Shown here piece after piece: positions 5,315 through 28,858 of a stretch of DNA of 35,667 nucleotides (the stretch's first letter is position 1; every line of letters begins with the position of its first letter). The position numbers and the translations under genes are program-made. The notes under the pieces were generated by a model. It did not search any database. It worked only from the letters and a program-made list of their open reading frames with translations, and was not told the DNA's origin. This stretch comes from Victivallales bacterium (GTDB lineage: Bacteria > Verrucomicrobiota > Lentisphaeria > Oligosphaerales > Oligosphaeraceae): assembly GCA_017535315.1 (NCBI GenBank), contig JAFXUD010000068.1, positions 1 through 35,667 on the forward strand, given 5' to 3'.

Positions 5315-6037
5315 ATGAAAACAATCCTTCGTTTCACACTTATTGAGTTGCTGGTTGTGATTGCCATTATAGCCATCCTGGCGGCCATGTTGTTGCCAGC
5401 CCTCAGCAAAGCACGCGAAAAGGCGCGCACGATTTCCTGCACAAGCAATGAAAAGCAGATTGGTCTGGGAATGCTCCAGTACGCCCTGGACAGCGACGAC
5501 ATAATTATCTTCCAGCAGAACATGCCTGTCAAAGGAACAACCCTCAACTATCCTGGCGATTTCCCATCATCATGGACAGTGCCGCTCTATAAGTGGCAAA
5601 GCGGTATCTACCACTATGTCGGCGATGCTAAGGTCTGGCAAGACCCCTCAACGAAGAGCCAGAGCGCCAAGTTAGGCGTCTGCGGCTATGCAAACCAGGG
5701 TGCTGGTTCTGCGAACTTCGGTATGCCATACGTCGCATGGGGTGGTACGACAAGAGCCCCCTTGACTGCCCATGCAACTCCTGCACAGACCATGTGGTTT
5801 GTTTGCTGCAACGATCGGGCCGCTTCTGGACGCAACTGGACTGTCTATGGTCTCTTCCAGAATGTCGATGTCACAGATTACGGCGGCGTTAACGACAAGC
5901 ATGCTGGCGGCGCGAACTGCGGTATGATCGATGGACATGTCGAGAGCCACAGGATGGACTACTACTGGCAGATGACCACAGTGAACAGCAGCAATGCTGT
6001 CTCACGCCTCTGGGCACACTACGAACCTGGCAAATAA
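5315..6037 (+). CDS. Prepilin-type pseudopilin with H-X9-DG domain (DUF1559-like)
   Basis: A 240-residue pseudopilin. A type III prepilin-like start, [20 protein letters not shown] at 7-26, gives one hydrophobic helix with the conserved Glu at +5 of the putative mature protein. A short charged stretch follows (SKAREKAR), then a globular domain. The C-terminal part has H196, exactly nine residues, then D206-G207, the H-X9-DG motif of prepilin-type processing-associated proteins that are abundant in Lentisphaerota and Planctomycetota. Oddly, the residue before the cleavage point is Arg6 and not the Gly expected by prepilin peptidase. A good ribosome site (AGGAGA) precedes the ATG. The function is unknown; members often lie beside carbohydrate-use genes, as here. 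A long structured leader precedes it and a perfect hairpin follows. Confidence 0.88.
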
Positions 6038-18654: not shown

Positions 18655-18852
18655 TCAGCCGTTCTGCCAAGGGCGATAGAACTTGCGCTTGCGTGAAATC
18701 ACATATTTCGGGGAAACAAGTACTGGCCTACGTGACTTATCACAGACAACAACTTTTCTCCCTTCCTGCTCACACGACAAATACATATTGCCGAGTGATT
18801 CATTCATGGCAGAAAGAGCCTGCTTCATAATTGAACTCATTTCAATATTCAC
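18655..18852 (-). CDS. Small protein coupled to the Zeta-like ATPase, candidate partner
   Basis: A protein of up to 65 residues, beginning with GTG at 18852 and overlapping the stop of the ATPase gene by four bases (GTGA). This indicates translational coupling. A shorter form would start at the ATG at 18840. The N-terminal half is helical with Met and Ser. The C-terminal half is strongly basic (EQEGRKVVVCDKSRRPVLV, then SRKRKFYRPW). There is no membrane segment. Such small partners often accompany Zeta/COG4185-type ATPases, so an antitoxin-like or adaptor role is plausible but unproven. The gene order (ATPase first) is the reverse of epsilon-zeta. Confidence 0.6.
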   Translation of the reverse strand: MNIEMSSIMKQALSAMNESLGNMYLSCEQEGRKVVVCDKSRRPVLVSPKYVISRKRKFYRPWQNG

Positions 18853-19484
18853 TTATCTTCCTCCTTCTTTACGGGAGTTCCCATGTTGTTCTGCTCTTGC
18901 AGCTCGCGCAGATAGCGTTCTATCTCCGCAAATAAATCCGCATCCATGATATTGCACTCGCCGCCAAGCATCTTCTCGAATATCGGAACCATCTTGGTCC
19001 CAGAATTGTCAAAGCACAGCGTCATGTCGCAGACATCCGAATATGTAAACAAATTGGACAAACTCCTTGGATAACGCCTGAAGATATCCTTCTCTGGAAT
19101 GTCATGCCCGCCTCTGGAGACACGCTCCTTAACCCGCTGAAGGGAAAAGAGGGCACTTGGAATGTATAAATAGTACAAAACCACATTCCAGTTGTTTTCA
19201 CGCCATCGGCGAATCCTCGGCAAGAATCCAGACCCCGCCAATGTCGTCTCAAATGCAAAATCCTCGCGCAGCTCTATATGCCGTTCCAGTTCCTCCAGAA
19301 AAATCTTTCCAGCCTTTGCCTGCACCTTGCCAGGGTCTTCAGGGCAAAGGTTCTTGGCTATGTCATCTGCATTCAGATAGTTTCCGTCTTTTATGTAATT
19401 CAAGATATATGAACGGGCAAATGTACTTTTTCCCGCTCCATTGGGGCCTGAAACAATATGGCAAGTAGGTTGATTATGATCCAT
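18849..19484 (-). CDS. Zeta-toxin-like P-loop ATPase (COG4185 type)
   Basis: A P-loop protein of 211 residues. The Walker A motif GPNGAGKST lies at the start (about 13-21), followed by LNADDIAKNLCPEDP, where zeta-type kinases hold the conserved Asp for substrate phosphorylation. FAFETTLAGSG is the typical second motif, and an Arg-rich region (RVKERVSRGGHDIPEKDIFRRY) provides the lid. In the family these enzymes phosphorylate UDP-sugars or other small molecules; in the COG4185 branch the substrate is unknown. The longer frame begins with TTG at 19487; the ATG at 19484 is chosen. A 65-residue gene overlaps its end by four bases. It lies between repeat DNA and the pilus-like cluster; whether it acts as a toxin is inference. 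Confidence 0.82.
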   Translation of the reverse strand: MDHNQPTCHIVSGPNGAGKSTFARSYILNYIKDGNYLNADDIAKNLCPEDPGKVQAKAGKIFLEELERHIELREDFAFETTLAGSGFLPRIRRWRENNWNVVLYYLYIPSALFSLQRVKERVSRGGHDIPEKDIFRRYPRSLSNLFTYSDVCDMTLCFDNSGTKMVPIFEKMLGGECNIMDADLFAEIERYLRELQEQNNMGTPVKKEEDK

Positions 19485-19536
19485 CAATGCACCAATTTCA
19501 GACTATGCTACAATTTTTTGAAGCAAAGCCGAAAGC

Positions 19537-19576: not shown

Positions 19577-22372
19577 CTAGTGCCTGAAGTCGGGAAGACC
19601 TCTCATATCGTTTGCACGAATCGGAATACCCGAGGAATCAACCAGACGAGCATTCACGAAGATGAGCATATTGGTCTTAACGGACTTTTCGCCGCGGCTC
19701 CTAAACAGATGCCCCAGTAGCGGGATGCTGCCCAGAACAGGCACCTTATCCTCGAACTTCTGGAGTTTCTCTTGGATGAAGCCACCCAGAACAACGGTCT
19801 CACCGTCCCACACAACCAACTTGGTGTTGGCAATGCGCTCGGAGAGGATGGCCGTCATACCGACCTTCGATTCGAACTCCTTGCCTTCAATGATCATAAC
19901 TGTATTGAAGGAGGTGTCATAACCAAGGAAATCGATAATCTGCGGAGAAAGTTCCATGTCGATGGCAAAGCCATTGGCGGAGACAGTCGGCGTAACATCC
20001 AGGATGACACCCAGCTCGGTCTTTTCGCCGAAGGTGGGAGTTGCAGGCGTATAACTCATGCTGCCACTGTCACCTGATCCTGTCTCAATTTTTGGCGGCT
20101 CCCAGTCTTCAGGGAACTTGCGGACAGTGACGACCTTGATTTGGGCGGTGTTGCCGCTGATGGTGGTCACCTTGGGTGCCGAAAGAGTGTTCGTAATACC
20201 CTCTTGCTCAAGAGCATGGATGACGGTATTAAAGGCGTAGTTGCCGAGAATCGTATAGACATTGAAGAGTGAATCGGCGATGCCGTCCGCAAAATAGGTG
20301 CTGGCAAAGCGGATGCCGTTGGTCAGGGAAGAGGTATCCTTGCCAAGTCCGAGCTGGAAGTTGCCGCCCTGATTGGTGAAGCCAGTGTTACCTTTGTGAG
20401 CATTGTTGGCATTCGCATTGGCAAGATAGTGGTCGCCGCCATTGCCATCGCCTGTATTGTAGGAAACGGTACCAGCGAGAATGGACCATTCAAAACCAAG
20501 GGTGTCCAAATTGGTCTGCTCGATTTCAACGACCTTTGCCTCAATGGAAACCTGGGAAGGCGTCACATTCAACTCCTTAAGGATGTTCTCGACCTTCTCA
20601 TGGTTTTCAGGAGTGTTGTGAACAACCAGCTTGCCTTGGCGAGGATAATGCATCATCGTGGCACCTGCGGGGAAGGTGACACCCATGCTCCTGAACATCT
20701 GATCAATACCGACGAAATACTTGCTGTCTGTATCGTCGTCGTCATCGTCGTCGCCAGCCTTGAACTCAATCTTGTCCATCTTTTTCCGATTGCGTTTGGT
20801 GTCAAACACACCAGCCTCGACTTCATAGAATCTTGTAATCAGTTCATCCATCGGGTTGTCAGGATGGTTGACAATGACTGCCGTACCGTCAATTTTGATT
20901 TTCAGGCCAGTGACTATCTTGATGTAGTTCAGCACTTCGCTGAGCTTAACATTGTTCATTTCCATCGTGATGGTCTTGGTGGAATAGTCGGCTTCAGTAT
21001 CGCCAGCAGGAGCAGCTCCGCCAGCTCCTGCGCCAGCATCCATGCCCATTCCCATGCCCATGTCGCCCCCCATGCCCATGTCGCCCCCCATGCCCATGTC
21101 GCCTGCAGGCGCGCCAGGCTCAGGAGCCGCTCCCATGCCCATGTCATCGGCACCGCCGCCCATGTCGCCGCCCAAGCCCATGTCGCCGCCCATGTCGCCA
21201 CCACCAGCTGCAGGAGCCGCCGCTCCAGAAGCCCTGTTCCTGACAAGGTTCAAAACAAAGTTGACACCTTCATTATCAGGATCCAAATCAATGCTCTGAC
21301 GGCGAAGTTTCTCAAAAACCTCCTGCACAGGAGTATCACGGAATTTCACGTCTGGAATAATGATGCTGTCCAATTTCTCTTTGAGGCCTGTCACCATCTT
21401 TGACTTTTGGATAACTTTTACGCCTGCATTCGTGCCCGCCCCCGCAATCAGGGGAGTGATTGGCTCGGCCCATTTCCAGCGAACCTCGGCCATGCGCTCA
21501 ATCTGCGTCGCCTTCAATTTCTCGTTTGCGGCCTTTTCCATCTCCTTGTTGATACGGGCCAGATAACGGATGGCCGTGAGATTCGTCGGGTTACGCAGAA
21601 GAACTGTCTCAAAGGTATCACGGGCATCTGCATATCTGGCATTCTGCAGGAAGACCCGTCCGCGTTCCAAGTCAATAGCCTCAAGATAGTCATCTTCCGC
21701 CTTGTCCAGAATAATAGTGCTAACTTTCGTGCGTTCCTTGAACTCAACATCCTTCTGGTCAAGGCGAAGTTGCTTGATCATGCCATCCAACTTCTTCTTG
21801 TCGGATTCAGAATTCGTCATCGTCTTTGCCTTGGTCAACTTGTTCAAAGCGTCTTCCACCAATCCCGTATCAACGTTTTCCTTGGCTTCGCGCACAAGGT
21901 AGTCCGCCCATTTCATGTTCAGTTTCACATTGGCTTCACGAATTTTCTCATCAAGCTCCAGCGCCTGCTGCGCATTGGCACCTGCGTCCTTCGCGTACTT
22001 CTGTGCCTCCCTCAACTTGTTCTGCGCCTCTTCAAGCTTGTCCTCCGCCAAAGCATGCTGATCAAGCTCCAAAGCTTTGAGCGCTTCTTCAAAGTTTTGC
22101 TCGGCAACTATCAGTTTTTCCTGGCGAATCAACGATTCACGGTTGTTCCATTCAATTGCAACGTTGGCCTTTTCCTCACGGCGGCGCACATCCTGGGCCT
22201 TGGTGGCGTCAACGTCCACTACGACATCGCCCTGTTGATCCAATGACTTTGCGTCATCCTGCGCCCCTGCATTGGAAACAAAACATGAGAATGCCAGCAT
22301 GACCACACCTGAAATCACCGCAGATGCTTTCAGGTGCTTAATAATGAGAACTCCTCTTGTTGTCTTTTTCAT
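19577..22372 (-). CDS. Secretin of a PVC-type pilus-like system (Amuc_1098-like)
   Basis: A 931-residue outer-membrane secretin. A signal peptide (about 1-37) is followed by a long helical, TPR-like region (about 60-290). An STN/N-domain-like segment (335-377 and 463-505) is split by a Met/Gly/Asp-rich insert (381-458). A poly-Asp stretch (541-549) precedes the secretin domain (about 606-915), which has IEAKVVEIEQ, NTLSAPKVTTISG and the secretin signature VPVLGSIPLLGHLF at 877-890. The order of domains and the neighbours match the Akkermansia Amuc_1098 type of type IV pilus-like secretin. It would form the channel for a pilus-like fibre or for secretion. It has its own 229-base leader, so it may be expressed apart from the four genes upstream. 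The insert is encoded by an 18-bp DNA repeat. Confidence 0.88.
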   Translation of the reverse strand: MKKTTRGVLIIKHLKASAVISGVVMLAFSCFVSNAGAQDDAKSLDQQGDVVVDVDATKAQDVRRREEKANVAIEWNNRESLIRQEKLIVAEQNFEEALKALELDQHALAEDKLEEAQNKLREAQKYAKDAGANAQQALELDEKIREANVKLNMKWADYLVREAKENVDTGLVEDALNKLTKAKTMTNSESDKKKLDGMIKQLRLDQKDVEFKERTKVSTIILDKAEDDYLEAIDLERGRVFLQNARYADARDTFETVLLRNPTNLTAIRYLARINKEMEKAANEKLKATQIERMAEVRWKWAEPITPLIAGAGTNAGVKVIQKSKMVTGLKEKLDSIIIPDVKFRDTPVQEVFEKLRRQSIDLDPDNEGVNFVLNLVRNRASGAAAPAAGGGDMGGDMGLGGDMGGGADDMGMGAAPEPGAPAGDMGMGGDMGMGGDMGMGMGMDAGAGAGGAAPAGDTEADYSTKTITMEMNNVKLSEVLNYIKIVTGLKIKIDGTAVIVNHPDNPMDELITRFYEVEAGVFDTKRNRKKMDKIEFKAGDDDDDDDTDSKYFVGIDQMFRSMGVTFPAGATMMHYPRQGKLVVHNTPENHEKVENILKELNVTPSQVSIEAKVVEIEQTNLDTLGFEWSILAGTVSYNTGDGNGGDHYLANANANNAHKGNTGFTNQGGNFQLGLGKDTSSLTNGIRFASTYFADGIADSLFNVYTILGNYAFNTVIHALEQEGITNTLSAPKVTTISGNTAQIKVVTVRKFPEDWEPPKIETGSGDSGSMSYTPATPTFGEKTELGVILDVTPTVSANGFAIDMELSPQIIDFLGYDTSFNTVMIIEGKEFESKVGMTAILSERIANTKLVVWDGETVVLGGFIQEKLQKFEDKVPVLGSIPLLGHLFRSRGEKSVKTNMLIFVNARLVDSSGIPIRANDMRGLPDFRH
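21028..21232 (-). repeat. In-frame 18-bp repeat coding the Met/Gly/Asp segment of the secretin
   Basis: Two perfect 18-bp units (ATGCCCATGTCGCCCCCC on the plus strand; 21054-21071 and 21072-21089), a partial third and several degenerate ones encode GGDMGM hexapeptides in the minus-strand protein. The repeat keeps the frame, so slippage would change the insert by whole hexapeptides. Confidence 0.85.
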
Positions 22373-22601
22373 CGGTTGTCTCTCCGCAAACTGGCCACCT
22401 CATTCTGTTAAGAGAATGAAGGAACCAGCGGTTGTATCTTTATTTTTTTATTATCACAATGACAAAAAACACATCATAATATAGCACATAAAAACACAAT
22501 ATTATGAGTAAATTATCAAAATTGATATAAAAATGACGTTTTTTACCCAAAAAACAGGGAAAAAATCATTATTATGTCAAACCACAGTCTAATTTATGGA
22601 A
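22373..22601 (-). promoter_or_regulatory. AT-rich leader of the secretin gene with a stem-loop near the start
   Basis: There is no gene in these 229 bases. On the minus strand they contain TTGACA-like and TATATT-like boxes in strongly AT-rich DNA. A 7-bp stem (22400-22406 with 22413-22419, loop of six) sits about 28 bases before the secretin start. GAGAGA before the ATG is a weak ribosome site. An independent promoter for the secretin is likely; its exact position cannot be fixed. Confidence 0.45.
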
Positions 22602-23846
22602 TTACTGCCTCCTAAAATTGCGCCCTCTGCCAGGCCCTGGTTCAGCCATTCCAGGCTCCATTCCTGGCTCCATCATCATATCATCCATGCCTCCCCGACG
22701 ACTTTCAATAAAATCATTCTCCATATTGAAGAGCCGCAGCGAAAACTCCTTTTCAACTTTCCCCTTAGCCTCTTTCAGTAATCCGACCTTAACTGTATTC
22801 TCTGCCTCATTCGCTTCTAAAACACGATAGTACTCGACAACCCTTGAATTCGTCTTGTTCTTCACAAGAGGAAACTCATCGCCTACACGACGGGTAATCA
22901 CACTGCGGCGGAAAAGCATCTGGGCATAGTTCCGATCCCGTGTGGTCAGGTACAACATCCGCACCATCAAATTCCTGTGGAAGGTCTTGCGTCCTTTCTT
23001 GATATTATATGTCTCCGTTGGAGCATTTTTTTCAGAGACAACCACGTACGGAACTGCCATGGAGCCTTCACCATCAAAACCAGCCTGATGAATGGTAAAA
23101 CCAGCTACTTCATCCCCCACTTGACGGGTCATTCGACGCATCTTGCGCTGCTTGGGGTCGAACGCCATGACAATCACATCCCATTTCTTCACGTCATCAC
23201 TATTGTTGCGGTCAATGTCAACCAGTCCCAAAGGCACCTCCGTACGGAAGACCTTGTGCGTACGAAGCAGATTTGCCAGATTCGGAAAATCCTCCGCATC
23301 ATCCATCTTGGTTCCCTGTTCATACTCCTCTATGTTCAGGAAACCATCGTTGTCATAGTCTAGCCTGGCGTCCGACGGATCGCGATAATTCAGGATTTTG
23401 GAGGCAATTTCAACCTTGTCTGGGATGCCGTCGCCGTCCGTATCATCCCCTGCCGCCGTCTCTTTGCCCATTTCAGGCTGCTCCGTTCCACAGAATGGGC
23501 ACTTGTCTGAAAACAGGGAAATTAGATAATGGCAATTCTCATTCGCGCAGAGGATGAGCTTGTTTGGCTCAATCATGGATCCTTTCGGCGTCGGTGCCCC
23601 ATCGTCTCCTAGGATGTTCAGTATTTTTCTGGGGTCGTTCAAAAACCTGCCTATACCATATTCCCCTGCGCCTTTCTTCTCAATAATCCGTCCTACAGTA
23701 ACATCATTATTCGCCTTTCTAATCTCCTCGTCAATCGTTTTTTTAGTATTATTACTTGAATTCATAACCATGATAATGCCGACGAGGAGGCAGACCAGGC
23801 AGAAAGCCAAAATCAGCTTTTCATAATGTTTGACTAAGAATTCCAC
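22602..23846 (-). CDS. Amuc_1099-like pilus-system protein with zinc ribbon and TSP3-type repeats
   Basis: A 414-residue membrane-anchored protein with one span (about 10-28) at the N-terminus. A zinc-ribbon-like set, C100, C105, C116 and C119, follows. Two calcium-binding-type repeats come next: DDTDGDGIPDKVE (134-146) and DYDNDGFLNIEEYEQGT (163-179), the thrombospondin type 3/EF-hand pattern. The following 200 residues are beta-rich and unlike anything I recognise. The end is low-complexity (about 384-409, with two EPGM units). Its place between the Amuc_1100-like gene and the secretin matches Amuc_1099. It is probably an inner-membrane part of the apparatus with most of its mass outside. 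The next gene starts 229 bases on. Confidence 0.78.
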   Translation of the reverse strand: MEFLVKHYEKLILAFCLVCLLVGIIMVMNSSNNTKKTIDEEIRKANNDVTVGRIIEKKGAGEYGIGRFLNDPRKILNILGDDGAPTPKGSMIEPNKLILCANENCHYLISLFSDKCPFCGTEQPEMGKETAAGDDTDGDGIPDKVEIASKILNYRDPSDARLDYDNDGFLNIEEYEQGTKMDDAEDFPNLANLLRTHKVFRTEVPLGLVDIDRNNSDDVKKWDVIVMAFDPKQRKMRRMTRQVGDEVAGFTIHQAGFDGEGSMAVPYVVVSEKNAPTETYNIKKGRKTFHRNLMVRMLYLTTRDRNYAQMLFRRSVITRRVGDEFPLVKNKTNSRVVEYYRVLEANEAENTVKVGLLKEAKGKVEKEFSLRLFNMENDFIESRRGGMDDMMMEPGMEPGMAEPGPGRGRNFRRQ

Positions 23847-23874
23847 AATATGTTCTCCTTACTGGTTAGGCTCT

Positions 23875-24924
23875 CTAATCCGCATTCTCTTCGGTCTCTT
23901 CCGTTTTCTCCTCTTCCTCGCGATTGAAGAGAATCATATCAAAACGCAAAGTCCACTTTGTGGTCTTGTGCTCATAAACCAACAGCTCCTGCCGTCTCTG
24001 GGGAAGCTCCACCAAATTCGTTGTGCGGCCTGCTGCATCCCCCATACCAGGCTCCATATCCATGCCTGGTCCCATATTGTCCATGCCGCGTTTTCCACGC
24101 CTGCCTCTTCTTCCGCCACCCTCCATATCCATCTCCATGCCAGGCTCGCTCATACCTCCTCGACCCGAACTGGCACTGGAACCGCTGATGGCCGTATCCT
24201 TGATATCCTTTCCTATTTCGGTGGTCTTGTCATCGGCAATCAACTCAAAATACTTGAAGAAAAAGAGATTCTTGTCAGCCCGCGACATGAGGTTGATCAG
24301 GTTCTGTGCGGCAGCAGGCTTTGCAATGATGGTTAGTTCAATGGGAAGGAACTTATAGGAACCTTCATCCTGCTCCAGAATGCCTAGAGGCCTTGAGAGG
24401 TCCTCAAGGCTGTCAATCTTGGCCTTCACGCATGTCTCCAACACAATCTTGATGGCGGCAAGGTGCCTGAAAATAGAATCCAAGTCATCCTTGTTGGGCG
24501 GTTGTGTCGCTTTTGCGATGGCATCAAACGTGAAATACTCGCATTTGGAAGAATATTCGATGTTGTTATCCTCCAAAAAAGAGCGCATTTTTGCAAGCTC
24601 GTCCTTAAGAGTTCTAAGAGCCTCAATGGAGGTTTCAGGAACAGTATAATTCAACTGGAAGCGCTTCGTCAACTCTTGCTTCATCTGCTTAACCCCAGCC
24701 TCGGCAACTTTCTGATTCGTCTCCGCGATTTTGACGTTCTCGTCATTCAGTTTCAGGTTCTCCTTAGCCACATTGGCGAAATCCGTCATCTGCTTGGCAG
24801 CATTGTCCACTTGCGTTTTCTGCTTTCCTGCCGCCATGGAACAACATACGCCAACCGACAGTATCGCTATCACGCATACCAGCGTTATGAGCCAGAATCC
24901 CCAATTGTTTTTCAATAAGTCCAT
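23875..24924 (-). CDS. Amuc_1100-like PilO-type pilus-system protein
   Basis: A 349-residue protein with the architecture of Amuc_1100, the Akkermansia outer-surface protein related to PilO/PilN. One N-terminal span (about 9-28) is followed by a long coiled coil (35-90) and then two ferredoxin-like halves. The second half contains FLPIELTIIAKPAAAQNLIN and the strand FKYFELI at 224-230. A disordered insert (248-300, Met/Gly/Arg/Glu-rich) lies where Amuc_1100 also has an Ala/Pro-rich loop. The closing strand TLRFDMILFNR and the acidic tail echo the end of Amuc_1100. It should sit in the inner membrane and link PilM-PilN to the secretin. Homology is judged by eye from fold order and key strands. 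Confidence 0.82.
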   Translation of the reverse strand: MDLLKNNWGFWLITLVCVIAILSVGVCCSMAAGKQKTQVDNAAKQMTDFANVAKENLKLNDENVKIAETNQKVAEAGVKQMKQELTKRFQLNYTVPETSIEALRTLKDELAKMRSFLEDNNIEYSSKCEYFTFDAIAKATQPPNKDDLDSIFRHLAAIKIVLETCVKAKIDSLEDLSRPLGILEQDEGSYKFLPIELTIIAKPAAAQNLINLMSRADKNLFFFKYFELIADDKTTEIGKDIKDTAISGSSASSGRGGMSEPGMEMDMEGGGRRGRRGKRGMDNMGPGMDMEPGMGDAAGRTTNLVELPQRRQELLVYEHKTTKWTLRFDMILFNREEEEKTEETEENAD

Positions 24925-24994
24925 TATTTATCCTAGGTTTGTAAGGGTTTTCATTTGTTCCGTTGGATTATGGAAGGTCATCATGCCCCCAGAC

Positions 24995-27031
24995 TCAAGG
25001 CATCATCTCAGGTCCCATTTCGCCGCCACCGCCGCCAGAGCCCTTGCCAGACACCTTCAGATATTCGACAGGGACAGCCAGTTTCACCTGCATCCTGAAA
25101 TTGGAATAGTTCTTGAACTCATCGGAAAGGCTGTAGTAGGTGATGGCCGTAAGGGTTGGCTCGGCATCAAACAGAAGGCTCATGCGCAACGCGGCGATGA
25201 AGGCCTCCTCGGGCGTACTTCCAGAACTCTTCATCTCCTTTGCCATCAAATCATTGAGCGAAACCTTTGGCTTCGGCTTGGCTTCACCCTCATCCTCGCC
25301 GTTTCCCTCTTCTCCACCCTCTGGCGTCGGGACACTCTTTTCAACAGGGAATGGGAATTCAATCTCCTTGCCCAAGCGGAACGTCACCCCGCGCTTGTCA
25401 GGGGTCACGCTGGTGCCTGAAATCGTAAAGCCACCAATCGTCACAGTAGAACCAGAGGCTCCACCGCCACCGCCTTCGCCGCCAAAATCAGCGCCCGCAC
25501 CAAACATATCATCGCCTGGACCGAACATGTCACCCATCATGGCGTTTTCAGCAGCCTCCACATTGCTTTTCACCTCAAAGGGCTTCACCTCGCCTTCAAT
25601 TGGGCGAATGGATGTTATCCAAAGATTATCTGGCTTTATCCTATATATTTCATTGAGGATGGCAGGCAGTTTCGCCTGCCGTAACAGCAACTCGCCAATC
25701 GCCTCCGCCTCACTTTCACTGCTTGAAGCGGCCCCCATTGCATTCTTGATTCTATCGATGAAGGGTTTAACCTTGTCGTTCTTTATCTTGGCCAGTTTAA
25801 CATTATGGTCTTCATACTTTTTCGTCCTATTATTTATACCAAGCCATACAAAGAGAAGCATGAGAATCACCGAAACCATCGCCATCACAAAATAAGGCTT
25901 CTTCTTGTCAAAATTCTGCTGGCGACGGATGTTTGCAGGAATAAGACTCAATTCAATAGGGCATTGGGACGCATAGCGCAACCCCAAGCCGATGGCCTCG
26001 CTGAACATATGGCCAACCTCCACAAGTCTTTGCTTGTCAACAGTCGGCAACAGATTCACACACTTGAACGGGTTGAAATACTCTACTGGAATCCCCAGCT
26101 TCTCGGAGAAGAAGGTGTCGCAGTATGTGAGGATGGAACTACCACCCGTAATATACATCTTGGTCGGACGCGTCCCCTTCTGCTGCGAACAGTAGGCGTT
26201 TATCGTCCTGGTGATTTCACTCCAGAGGCGCGACATGACATTGCGGACTATCTTGGAGACATTTGCCGCCGTCTCTGACTCTGGCTCCGCGTAAGCACCA
26301 CCCAAGGCAACAAAGCCGTGATGTCGCTTAAGCTCCTCTGCCTCAGGCAACCCAATTCCGAACTCCTTGGCTATCTGCTGTGTGATGGTGTATCCTGCAA
26401 TCGGAATGGTTCTAGCGTAGAAGCGTTCGCCTTCGACAAAGATCAGGTTGGTTACCCTGCCACCAATGTTCAGGATGATAGCCGATTCGCCGTCATCCCC
26501 TATTCCGCAGGCTCGTGCCGTATTATAGCAGGCGGCAGAGGCGACGTCAATCAGAAGCGGCACGCACCCAACCTGGCTGATGGCCATCGTAAACTGATCG
26601 ACAATGTCATTCTTGATGACCACAGACATCAAATCAATGGAGTCATCGCTGGAATTGGAAATCAACTGGTAATCCCAAAGCACTTCGCTCAATTGGAATG
26701 GGATGTTCTGGGTCGCCTCAAACTCAGCCATCTGCTTGATCTTCTTCCTATCATAATTCATGAGGGGAAGCCTGTTGAAGCGGATGAGCGATGACTGGCC
26801 AGACATGCAAACCAATGCCTTATTCGCCGTGAAACCACCCTCCGCCAGCATCTGACGGAGCAATCCCGCGACAACCCCCATTCGGGTTCCCTCCGAAAGT
26901 TCCTCCTCGTATTCACGATAGGCGAATCGCGACAGGGAGACAGCGGCGTCAGCTCCCGTGAAATCAAATTCACACAGCTTAACACTGGTTGCGCCAATAT
27001 CAATGGCAAGTATTTTATCTTCTCTGGCCAT
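24995..27031 (-). CDS. PilM-PilN-like fusion protein (Amuc_1101-like)
   Basis: A 678-residue protein. Residues 1-365 form a PilM/FtsA-like actin-fold domain: IDIGATSVKLCEF at 10-22 (phosphate-1), the second phosphate motif ILNIGGRVTNLI at 186-197, and an adenosine-type motif YITGGSS at 293-299. A membrane span (379-399) follows, then a coiled segment and a PilN-like ferredoxin region (about 410-480). A Met/Gly/Asp insert (495-528) and an acidic Gly/Glu/Pro-rich segment (567-590) precede a further alpha/beta half (595-660) and a Gly-rich tail ending GPEMMP. Cytoplasmic PilM and membrane PilN are separate proteins in most type IV pili; here they are joined. It would couple the cytoplasmic ring to the envelope parts. 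Confidence 0.87.
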   Translation of the reverse strand: MAREDKILAIDIGATSVKLCEFDFTGADAAVSLSRFAYREYEEELSEGTRMGVVAGLLRQMLAEGGFTANKALVCMSGQSSLIRFNRLPLMNYDRKKIKQMAEFEATQNIPFQLSEVLWDYQLISNSSDDSIDLMSVVIKNDIVDQFTMAISQVGCVPLLIDVASAACYNTARACGIGDDGESAIILNIGGRVTNLIFVEGERFYARTIPIAGYTITQQIAKEFGIGLPEAEELKRHHGFVALGGAYAEPESETAANVSKIVRNVMSRLWSEITRTINAYCSQQKGTRPTKMYITGGSSILTYCDTFFSEKLGIPVEYFNPFKCVNLLPTVDKQRLVEVGHMFSEAIGLGLRYASQCPIELSLIPANIRRQQNFDKKKPYFVMAMVSVILMLLFVWLGINNRTKKYEDHNVKLAKIKNDKVKPFIDRIKNAMGAASSSESEAEAIGELLLRQAKLPAILNEIYRIKPDNLWITSIRPIEGEVKPFEVKSNVEAAENAMMGDMFGPGDDMFGAGADFGGEGGGGGASGSTVTIGGFTISGTSVTPDKRGVTFRLGKEIEFPFPVEKSVPTPEGGEEGNGEDEGEAKPKPKVSLNDLMAKEMKSSGSTPEEAFIAALRMSLLFDAEPTLTAITYYSLSDEFKNYSNFRMQVKLAVPVEYLKVSGKGSGGGGGEMGPEMMP

Positions 27032-27074
27032 AATGTTCCGTTATTATATTGCTGAATGGCTCACGGGTTGCAAA

Positions 27075-27686
27075 TCAATTCGTCTTCTCGAACTCGTAGT
27101 AGTCAAAGTCCATCGCAGCGAAAGGCGTCTTGCTCTTCGGAAGCAGGGCATTCGGGAAGGACTGCATCTTGTCCAAGGAATTATACCAGTTGTTCGGCAT
27201 ACTGTTGCTACGCTTTTCTTCACGGGCCACCCGAACTCCATCCACATAAAACTCCACATAGACGCTGATTTTGCCACTCTCGATGCGCTTTGAACGGAAA
27301 TAGCGCCTGAAGAACTTCGGAGAAACATACGCGCAGAGATTATGTCCACGCCCATCTTCCACATCCAAATAGGTGATGGCCTGCGTCAGCCCCGCCACTT
27401 TCCCCGTATCTATCTGGATGGCTACAAGCCAACGAACTTCCAGTTCGCCAATCCATTCCTTTTTGGACTTGCTGTCAAACTCGACATCCACACGGAACCA
27501 GCGTTCCTTGGCCCCCTGCGAACCACGCAGTGAATCCTTGAACTGGGGGGTCACCTGGTCTTTCAGATCAATTTTCTTGATCTTGATTTCAGCGCCTCCG
27601 CCTCCCTTCTGCGCATAAACGGGCAAAGCAAAGAAGACAACAGCCAAGATGACCATTGACCTGAACAACTGTTTCCTCATTGACAT
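27075..27686 (-). CDS. Amuc_1102-like secreted pilus-system protein
   Basis: A protein of about 203 residues with a signal peptide (about 1-25, ending VYAQK). A beta-rich domain follows with repeated strands such as RWFRVDVEFD, GELEVRWLVAIQI and KISVYVEFYVDGV. This fits an immunoglobulin-like fold, as I recall for Amuc_1102. It lies first in the cluster, the same place as in Akkermansia. The frame could open at 27695, but GAGGA touches that ATG and lies nine bases from the ATG at 27686, so the later start is preferred. It has no membrane span besides the signal peptide and should be periplasmic or exported. It is the only apparatus protein here without a Met/Gly insert, though it begins KGGGG after the signal. 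Confidence 0.75.
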   Translation of the reverse strand: MSMRKQLFRSMVILAVVFFALPVYAQKGGGGAEIKIKKIDLKDQVTPQFKDSLRGSQGAKERWFRVDVEFDSKSKKEWIGELEVRWLVAIQIDTGKVAGLTQAITYLDVEDGRGHNLCAYVSPKFFRRYFRSKRIESGKISVYVEFYVDGVRVAREEKRSNSMPNNWYNSLDKMQSFPNALLPKSKTPFAAMDFDYYEFEKTN

Positions 27687-27871: not shown

Positions 27872-28858
27872 TCATTGCCATTTGGTGTTAAAGGGTTCAA
27901 GAGGCAAAACTGGCACGGAATTTCCCATTCGCCCCGTATTCAAGGCGCTGGCCATGGAGGCTGGAATTGCAGCCTTTGAACTCTCAACCTGCCCCCGCAT
28001 CTCCATCGTCACGGATACCATCTCCTGCTTGGCCGCCCTAGCGTTCGCATGGCGCTGCGCCGCCTTCGCCTGAGCGATTCGCTTGTCCGCCGCCGCCTGC
28101 TCGGAGCGCAGACGTGCATTCACATTCTCCCCGACCTGAAGCTCTGAAATATCGACCGAGACGATTTCATACTGCAAGTTCTCATCCAGCTTCTTGGAAA
28201 GAATCTCACGCGTGATGATGCTCGGATCCACCAGAATGTCCCGATGCGATTCAGCACGACCGATGGCGGAGACAATCCCCTCGCCAACGCGTGCGATGAC
28301 CGTGTCGGCACCTGCCCCCCCTACCAGCTTGTCCAACCGTGTGCGAACCGTGATGTTCGCGATGACAATCAGCTTGACACCGTCCTTGGCCACCGCCTCA
28401 ATGCCATGCGGCTTCTCCCTGCCGACAGGCTGCGGACAGACCAGCACGACAGGCTTGACATGGGAATCCACGGCCGCCATCACGTCCCGCCCAGCCAGAT
28501 CAATCGCCGCTATCTGCTGAAAAGAAAGAGGCAGCCCTGCCTTGATGGCAGAAACGGACGCGGATACGACACGCGTCAAATTGCCGCCCGCCTGAATATG
28601 GTCCTCCAACATCTCGCACTCGACTGGAACCCCTGCACGCACAAGCACTTTAAGATTCTCAACGATGAACCGACGGTTCAGTTTCTTGAAATACATCCGT
28701 AAAAAATCACCATAGCCCACCTTGCAGCCAATTGCCTTCGCTTCCACAAGCAATCCAGTCGCCTGGATGCAAAAATTGGCCATCCAAAGCAAAATCCCCA
28801 GTACAACCAACACGAACAGGCCAACGATAATCAAAAGAAATGTAATTAGCAGATTCAT
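27872..28858 (-). CDS. floA: Flotillin-like protein FloA
   Basis: A 328-residue membrane protein of the FloA (YqfA) family, which organises functional membrane microdomains. A hydrophobic N-terminal hairpin (about 3-27) anchors it. The SPFH-like domain (about 30-230) includes KLNRRFIVENLKVLVRAGV and the AAIDLAGRDVMAAV segment. A helical, Ala/Glu/Arg-rich part (about 240-310) gives oligomer contacts. Length and order match the family. GGGAGG lies five bases before the ATG. It stands between the pilus-like cluster and the rpmH operon, all on the minus strand. A long hairpin and the terminator of the rpmH operon separate it from khpB, so it has its own promoter. The neighbouring pilus genes may or may not be related in function. 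Confidence 0.93.
   Translation of the reverse strand: MNLLITFLLIIVGLFVLVVLGILLWMANFCIQATGLLVEAKAIGCKVGYGDFLRMYFKKLNRRFIVENLKVLVRAGVPVECEMLEDHIQAGGNLTRVVSASVSAIKAGLPLSFQQIAAIDLAGRDVMAAVDSHVKPVVLVCPQPVGREKPHGIEAVAKDGVKLIVIANITVRTRLDKLVGGAGADTVIARVGEGIVSAIGRAESHRDILVDPSIITREILSKKLDENLQYEIVSVDISELQVGENVNARLRSEQAAADKRIAQAKAAQRHANARAAKQEMVSVTMEMRGQVESSKAAIPASMASALNTGRMGNSVPVLPLEPFNTKWQ

Follow-up and report, generated by a model that had tools for sequence, protein, structure and literature searches.

Amuc_1098 to Amuc_1102 homologues in a Lentisphaeria genome very probably form the envelope-spanning half of a type IV pilus machine

The stretch of DNA analysed here (the window) comprises 35,667 nucleotides of a Lentisphaeria (Victivallales-like) genome (Victivallales bacterium, assembly GCA_017535315.1, contig JAFXUD010000068.1, positions 1 to 35,667). 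It carries five adjacent minus-strand genes, separated by gaps of 43, 70, 28 and 229 bases, which are homologous to Amuc_1102 to Amuc_1098 of Akkermansia muciniphila (MUL2) and follow the same order:

27075..27686, minus strand, Amuc_1102 (MUL2A)-like secreted protein with a Sec signal peptide, first gene of the cluster (NF042424, 79 bits)
24995..27031, minus strand, Amuc_1101-like PilM-PilN fusion of 678 aa with a cytoplasmic actin-like domain, a transmembrane (TM) helix and a PilN-type part in the periplasm (PilM_2, 2e-29; NF045709, 386 bits)
23875..24924, minus strand, Amuc_1100/PilO-like periplasmic protein of 349 aa with a single TM segment and a Gly/Met-rich disordered loop (NF038287, 34.5 bits, E 1.5e-8)
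22602..23846, minus strand, Amuc_1099-like membrane protein of 414 aa with a TM helix, a zinc ribbon, two calcium-type loops and a C-terminal beta-rich region (NF042425, E 2e-10)
19577..22372, minus strand, Amuc_1098-like secretin with a TPR-like N-terminal region (Pfam Secretin, 6e-33; NF042912, 370 bits)

Each protein matches the NCBIfam family expected at its position, in agreement with the first-pass annotation, which had read five consecutive genes in the order Amuc_1102 to Amuc_1098, the last of them a secretin. Measured against the equivalog cut-offs, only the 1102-like protein passes (79 against 55 bits); the Amuc_1101 (386 against 650), Amuc_1100 (34.5 against 180), Amuc_1099 (40.7 against 50) and Amuc_1098 (370 against 750) homologues stay below and are therefore distant homologues, not equivalogs by the NCBI rule. 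The same gene order is found in the Lentisphaeria loci L043, L045 and L046, which places it beyond chance, and the 1102-like protein shares 45-49% identity with Lentisphaeria homologues at the same position. Its reading frame is open from 27695, but a GAGGA motif is better spaced for the ATG at 27686, the boundary also chosen in the first pass. The nearest named relatives are Lentisphaeria and Victivallales genomes, including a goat-rumen metagenome-assembled genome (81% identity) and Oligosphaera ethanolica.

Sequence-only searches of the Protein Data Bank (PDB) with the 349-, 206- and 414-residue proteins gave no meaningful match. For the 349-residue protein an AlphaFold2 model was built from an alignment of six Lentisphaeria sequences only, none from Akkermansia, and reached modest confidence (pLDDT 58, pTM 0.46). 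In a Foldseek search of the PDB its ten best-ranked matches were all Amuc_1100 crystal structures (6lad, 6kny, 6laf; best E 8.5e-7), followed by PilO in the type IVa pilus model 3jc8 and Pseudomonas PilO 2rjz (probability 0.97). The proposed kinship with Amuc_1100 is thus matched by fold, within the modest confidence of the model, and so is the description as a PilO-type protein, PilO being the nearest non-Amuc fold; the two ferredoxin-like halves also proposed are tested only weakly by a model of this pLDDT. The acidic end that had been noted is present in the sequence (EEEEKTEETEENAD) but missing from more distant Lentisphaeria homologues, and is therefore not a conserved feature. Identity to Akkermansia Amuc_1100 is 16%, which gives no basis for inferring host signalling by the Lentisphaeria homologue.

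The family profile of the 1101 proteins aligns to Myxococcus PilM (5e-72) and PilN (2e-10), and GspL of the type II secretion system (Gsp) is absent among the 20 PDB matches listed, which bears out the reading of this gene as a PilM-PilN fusion. Consistent with this, PilM_2 is matched by all 50 family members, T2SSL by six of them and weakly.

In the 1099-like protein the zinc ribbon is formed by C100, C105, C116 and C119, and the two calcium-type loops read DTDGDGIPD and DYDNDGFLNIEE. It also carries the family signature, D163, D165, D167, F169, E174 and P188, which is nearly invariant over 61 homologues. Among these, 58 match NF042425, 33 match the TSP3 calcium-binding repeat and 41 contain a CxxC motif, the zinc ribbon being part of the family consensus. 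It is kept in the window's protein but absent from that of locus L084, in the one Akkermansia genome examined; we take its genus (g39) to be Akkermansia from our own sequence reading, by which its Amuc_1100 is recognisable, and not from a named record.

No pilB, pilT or pilC match lies inside the window, as the first-pass annotation had stated, leaving the motor either elsewhere or absent. A search of the genome decides for elsewhere. It holds four PilB/GspE-type ATPases, several PilT-type proteins and two full PilC/GspF-type proteins, and contig C7 carries a motor operon with intact Walker motifs:

C7 54956-56686, pilB1
C7 56745-58448, pilB2
C7 58536-59630, pilT
C7 59823-61067, pilC

PilB1 scores best as PilB, PilB2 as GspE (over its cut-off) and PilC as GspF, while PilT exceeds the pilT_fam cut-off (455 against 319 bits). 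No genes of the envelope half were found beside the operon in the 19 kb read. The two halves adjoin in relatives. In G055, of the window's class, 1101-1100-1099-1098-1098-pilB1-pilB2-pilT-pilC lie contiguously on one strand; in G157 the motor stands directly upstream of the cluster (pilB1-pilT-pilB2-pilC-1102-1101-1100); and in G015 pilB1-pilT-pilB2-pilC is followed by four prepilin-like genes and then by the five-gene cluster. When the eight motor proteins of G157 and G015 were compared with the window's genome, the best match was the corresponding C7 gene in all eight cases, with clear margins over the next-best match (PilT 67% against 43-44%, PilC 38-46% against 24-26%).

The wording "outside Akkermansia" had presented the cluster as an exception; it is instead the rule across the phylum. 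Among 195 Verrucomicrobiota genomes surveyed (E <= 0.001), the 1101 family was matched in 188, 1098 in 187, 1100 in 149 and 1102 in 75. Because the PilM and secretin models also match ordinary control genomes, 1101 was counted at E < 1e-30, which left 170 genomes. Of 60 loci sampled from ~46 families, nearly all show a layout of proteins of ~210, ~570, ~340, ~350 and ~900-1100 aa, and the exceptions are mostly contig ends. With 1101 and a C7-type PilC scored together, both are present in 166 genomes, 1101 only in 4, PilC only in 6 and neither in 19 (10 discordant), at thresholds of our own choice and in genomes that are not independent of one another; four of the six genomes with PilC but without 1101 still have 1100 and 1098 matches. 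In a tree of 64 PilM-N proteins the window's class falls on one side of a 100/100 branch and families are generally followed; the tree follows taxonomy and shows the cluster to be inherited vertically. In several loci of the window's class (L136 11030-15692 in G055, L072, L070, L073 and others) the 1099-like gene is succeeded by a tandem pair of genes of secretin size.

Conservation of the MUL2 locus (Amuc_1099-1102) in Akkermansiaceae and other Verrucomicrobiales, and its absence in Methylacidiphilales, have been described (PMC13174399), and Amuc_1098 has been called PilQ (PMC10688800). The NCBIfam models, like the conservation among Verrucomicrobiales, were already public; an extension to Lentisphaeria and a motor assignment were not found in the literature searched, which covered few subscription journals. 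The window's cluster is one ordinary case of a system found across the phylum, to which we add the motor assignment and the absence of pilT from the Akkermansia operon.

We posit that the products of the five genes very probably make up that half of a Verrucomicrobiota form of the type IV pilus machine which spans the envelope (alignment and secretin parts), with the C7 operon as its motor. Homology, gene order, co-occurrence and operon fusion in relatives are observed; from them we infer the physical assembly, the identity of the filament and the roles of the 1099- and 1102-like proteins. The PilM-like domain would lie at the cytoplasmic side of the inner membrane, and its fusion to PilN would tie a cytoplasmic ring to the periplasm within one polypeptide. 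The Amuc_1100-like protein would act as PilO, pairing with the PilN part, and the 1099-like protein, in the position of PilP or GspC, would link the inner-membrane parts to the 1098-like secretin as the outer-membrane gate; its zinc ribbon and calcium-type loops may stiffen or regulate it. The 1102-like protein may be an exported accessory or minor-pilin-like part. On the cytoplasmic side, PilB1 (PilB-type) and PilB2 (GspE-type) would extend the filament via the PilC platform and PilT would retract it. The type IVa machines of Myxococcus and Pseudomonas (PilM-N-O-P-Q with PilB-T-C) have in common with this arrangement the homology to PilM and PilN, the PilO-like fold, the secretin and, on C7, PilB, PilT and PilC. 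They differ in that PilM and PilN are fused here, the 1099 family stands in place of PilP, a 1102 protein is added, PilB1 and PilB2 are paired and the motor is unlinked in the window's genome.

Several observations weigh against this proposal. The first pass had called the 414-residue protein a zinc-ribbon membrane protein, and the ribbon is borne out. A fold search with its AlphaFold2 model (pLDDT 58, pTM 0.35) brought no significant match; because of this, its role as the PilP/GspC-position subunit is inferred from position only. Pfam PilP, the lipoprotein of type IVa systems, is matched by none of the 1099-family members, and Pfam PilO by just one of 56 members of the 1100 family. With respect to filament, expression and interaction, the proposal is drawn from sequences and structure models. 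The pilin partner is not singled out among ~100 prepilin genes, two further PilM-containing gene sets in the genome (on C46 and C71) could share parts, and the secretin, PilB2 and PilC are slightly closer to type II models (GspD, GspE, GspF) than to type IV models.

The last point makes a type II-like or hybrid role the main rival, because these three proteins lean to Gsp and one relative has pseudopilin-like genes at the junction of motor and cluster. Under this reading, PilM-N would be GspL, the Amuc_1100-like protein GspM, with a GspC-like protein and GspD beside them, and together with GspE, GspF and pseudopilins the apparatus would export proteins. The layout of GspL does resemble the PilM-N fusion; the window's secretin scores 152 bits to GspD and 134 to PilQ, both under cut-off and far from the 370 bits to NF042912; PilB2 scores above the GspE cut-off, and GspF is the best match for PilC; a few 1100-family members match GspM models; the last of the four prepilin-like genes directly upstream of the G015 cluster is large like GspK; and the Akkermansia operon is devoid of pilT. 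We nevertheless regard a type II system as unlikely. A cognate pilT belongs to the motor operon of the window's genome and adjoins the cluster in G055, G157 and G015, the 1101 family aligns to PilM and PilN with PilM_2 in every member, and, Amuc_1100 structures aside, the 1100 homologue comes closest in fold to PilO. Furthermore, Pfam T2SSC, the model for GspC with its HR and PDZ domains, is matched by neither the window's 1099-like protein nor the 61 family members.

The lack of motor genes in the window would fit a relic without a motor, or a surface complex whose role is purely structural or in signalling, but we reject this reading as very improbable on account of the orthologous C7 operon with its intact Walker motifs, the co-occurrence of 1101 with C7-type PilC and the five intact and conserved reading frames. 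The idea that an Akkermansia-like gut bacterium recently donated the cluster, which would then serve host signalling, is hardly credible and is rejected on the PilM-N tree, in which the window's own class is set apart with full support; the rumen relative suggests a gut habitat, but the same cluster occurs in Oligosphaera ethanolica and the 1100 homologue has diverged far from the Akkermansia protein.

The window's genome keeps a cognate pilT; a counterpart is missing in other lineages. At a threshold of E < 1e-115, where the scores show a clean gap, a C7-type PilT is missing from 61 of the 166 genomes holding 1101 and PilC, including every genome of genus g39. The Akkermansia motor locus (L142; G113 C1:1896000-1914000) is a contiguous pilB1-pilB2-pilC-prepilin array without pilT, in which 70 bases separate pilB2 from pilC, and pilB1-pilB2-pilC without pilT also occurs in three other lineages (L143, L144, L145). 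More distant PilT-type proteins (~1e-94) are present in Akkermansia, and retraction is therefore not excluded there. We tentatively suggest, at somewhat less than an even chance, that the cluster and pilB1-pilB2-(pilT)-pilC represent one ancestral Verrucomicrobiota type IV pilus/type II hybrid in which a PilB-type and a GspE-type motor are paired, that the Akkermansia lineage and several others lost the dedicated retraction ATPase, leaving an extension-only or secretion-like device, and that Amuc_1100 is a buried PilO-type platform protein and not a surface pilus subunit. With a motor partner named, it becomes testable in Akkermansia whether pilB1-pilB2-pilC drives the MUL2 apparatus and which consequences the lack of pilT has.

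Amuc_1100 attracts study as a probiotic protein, and the usual description makes it an outer-membrane protein associated with pili. Its phylum-wide conservation beside PilM-N and the secretin, its PilO-like fold and the membrane anchor at its N-terminus suggest instead that it serves as a platform in the periplasm; host effects would then be secondary.

The window's genome contains ~100 prepilin-type N-termini (PF07963), far more than any pilus needs; many belong to tandem groups of 220-330-aa proteins, and one lies in the window at 5315-6037. In G015, the stretch between pilC and the 1102 gene (L095 1240-5223) encodes three short prepilin-like proteins and one of 704 aa that resembles GspK. 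There are two prepilin peptidase loci, and at C80:14367-15065 the peptidase match falls in two stretches of one 433-aa frame, which suggests an insertion within the domain. The further PilM-containing sets (L052, L059) probably represent type IV filament or secretion systems that exist in parallel: C46:15923-23100 encodes a 622-aa protein, PilM-N, single-TM proteins of 310 and 234 aa and its own PilB, and C71:32250-41000 encodes PilM-N and proteins of 290 and 217 aa, with other genes nearby.

Upstream of the cluster lie floA, a khpB/jag-type gene, yidC and rnpA, the nearest being:

27872..28858, minus strand, FloA flotillin-like gene directly upstream of the cluster (PF12127, 5e-87)

A gene for a 328-340-aa protein occupies the floA position in L043, L045, L046, L060 and L063; any link of floA to the pilus is putative. 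Directly downstream of the secretin gene, at 18849-19487 on the minus strand, lies a gene resembling kinases of the zeta-toxin family.

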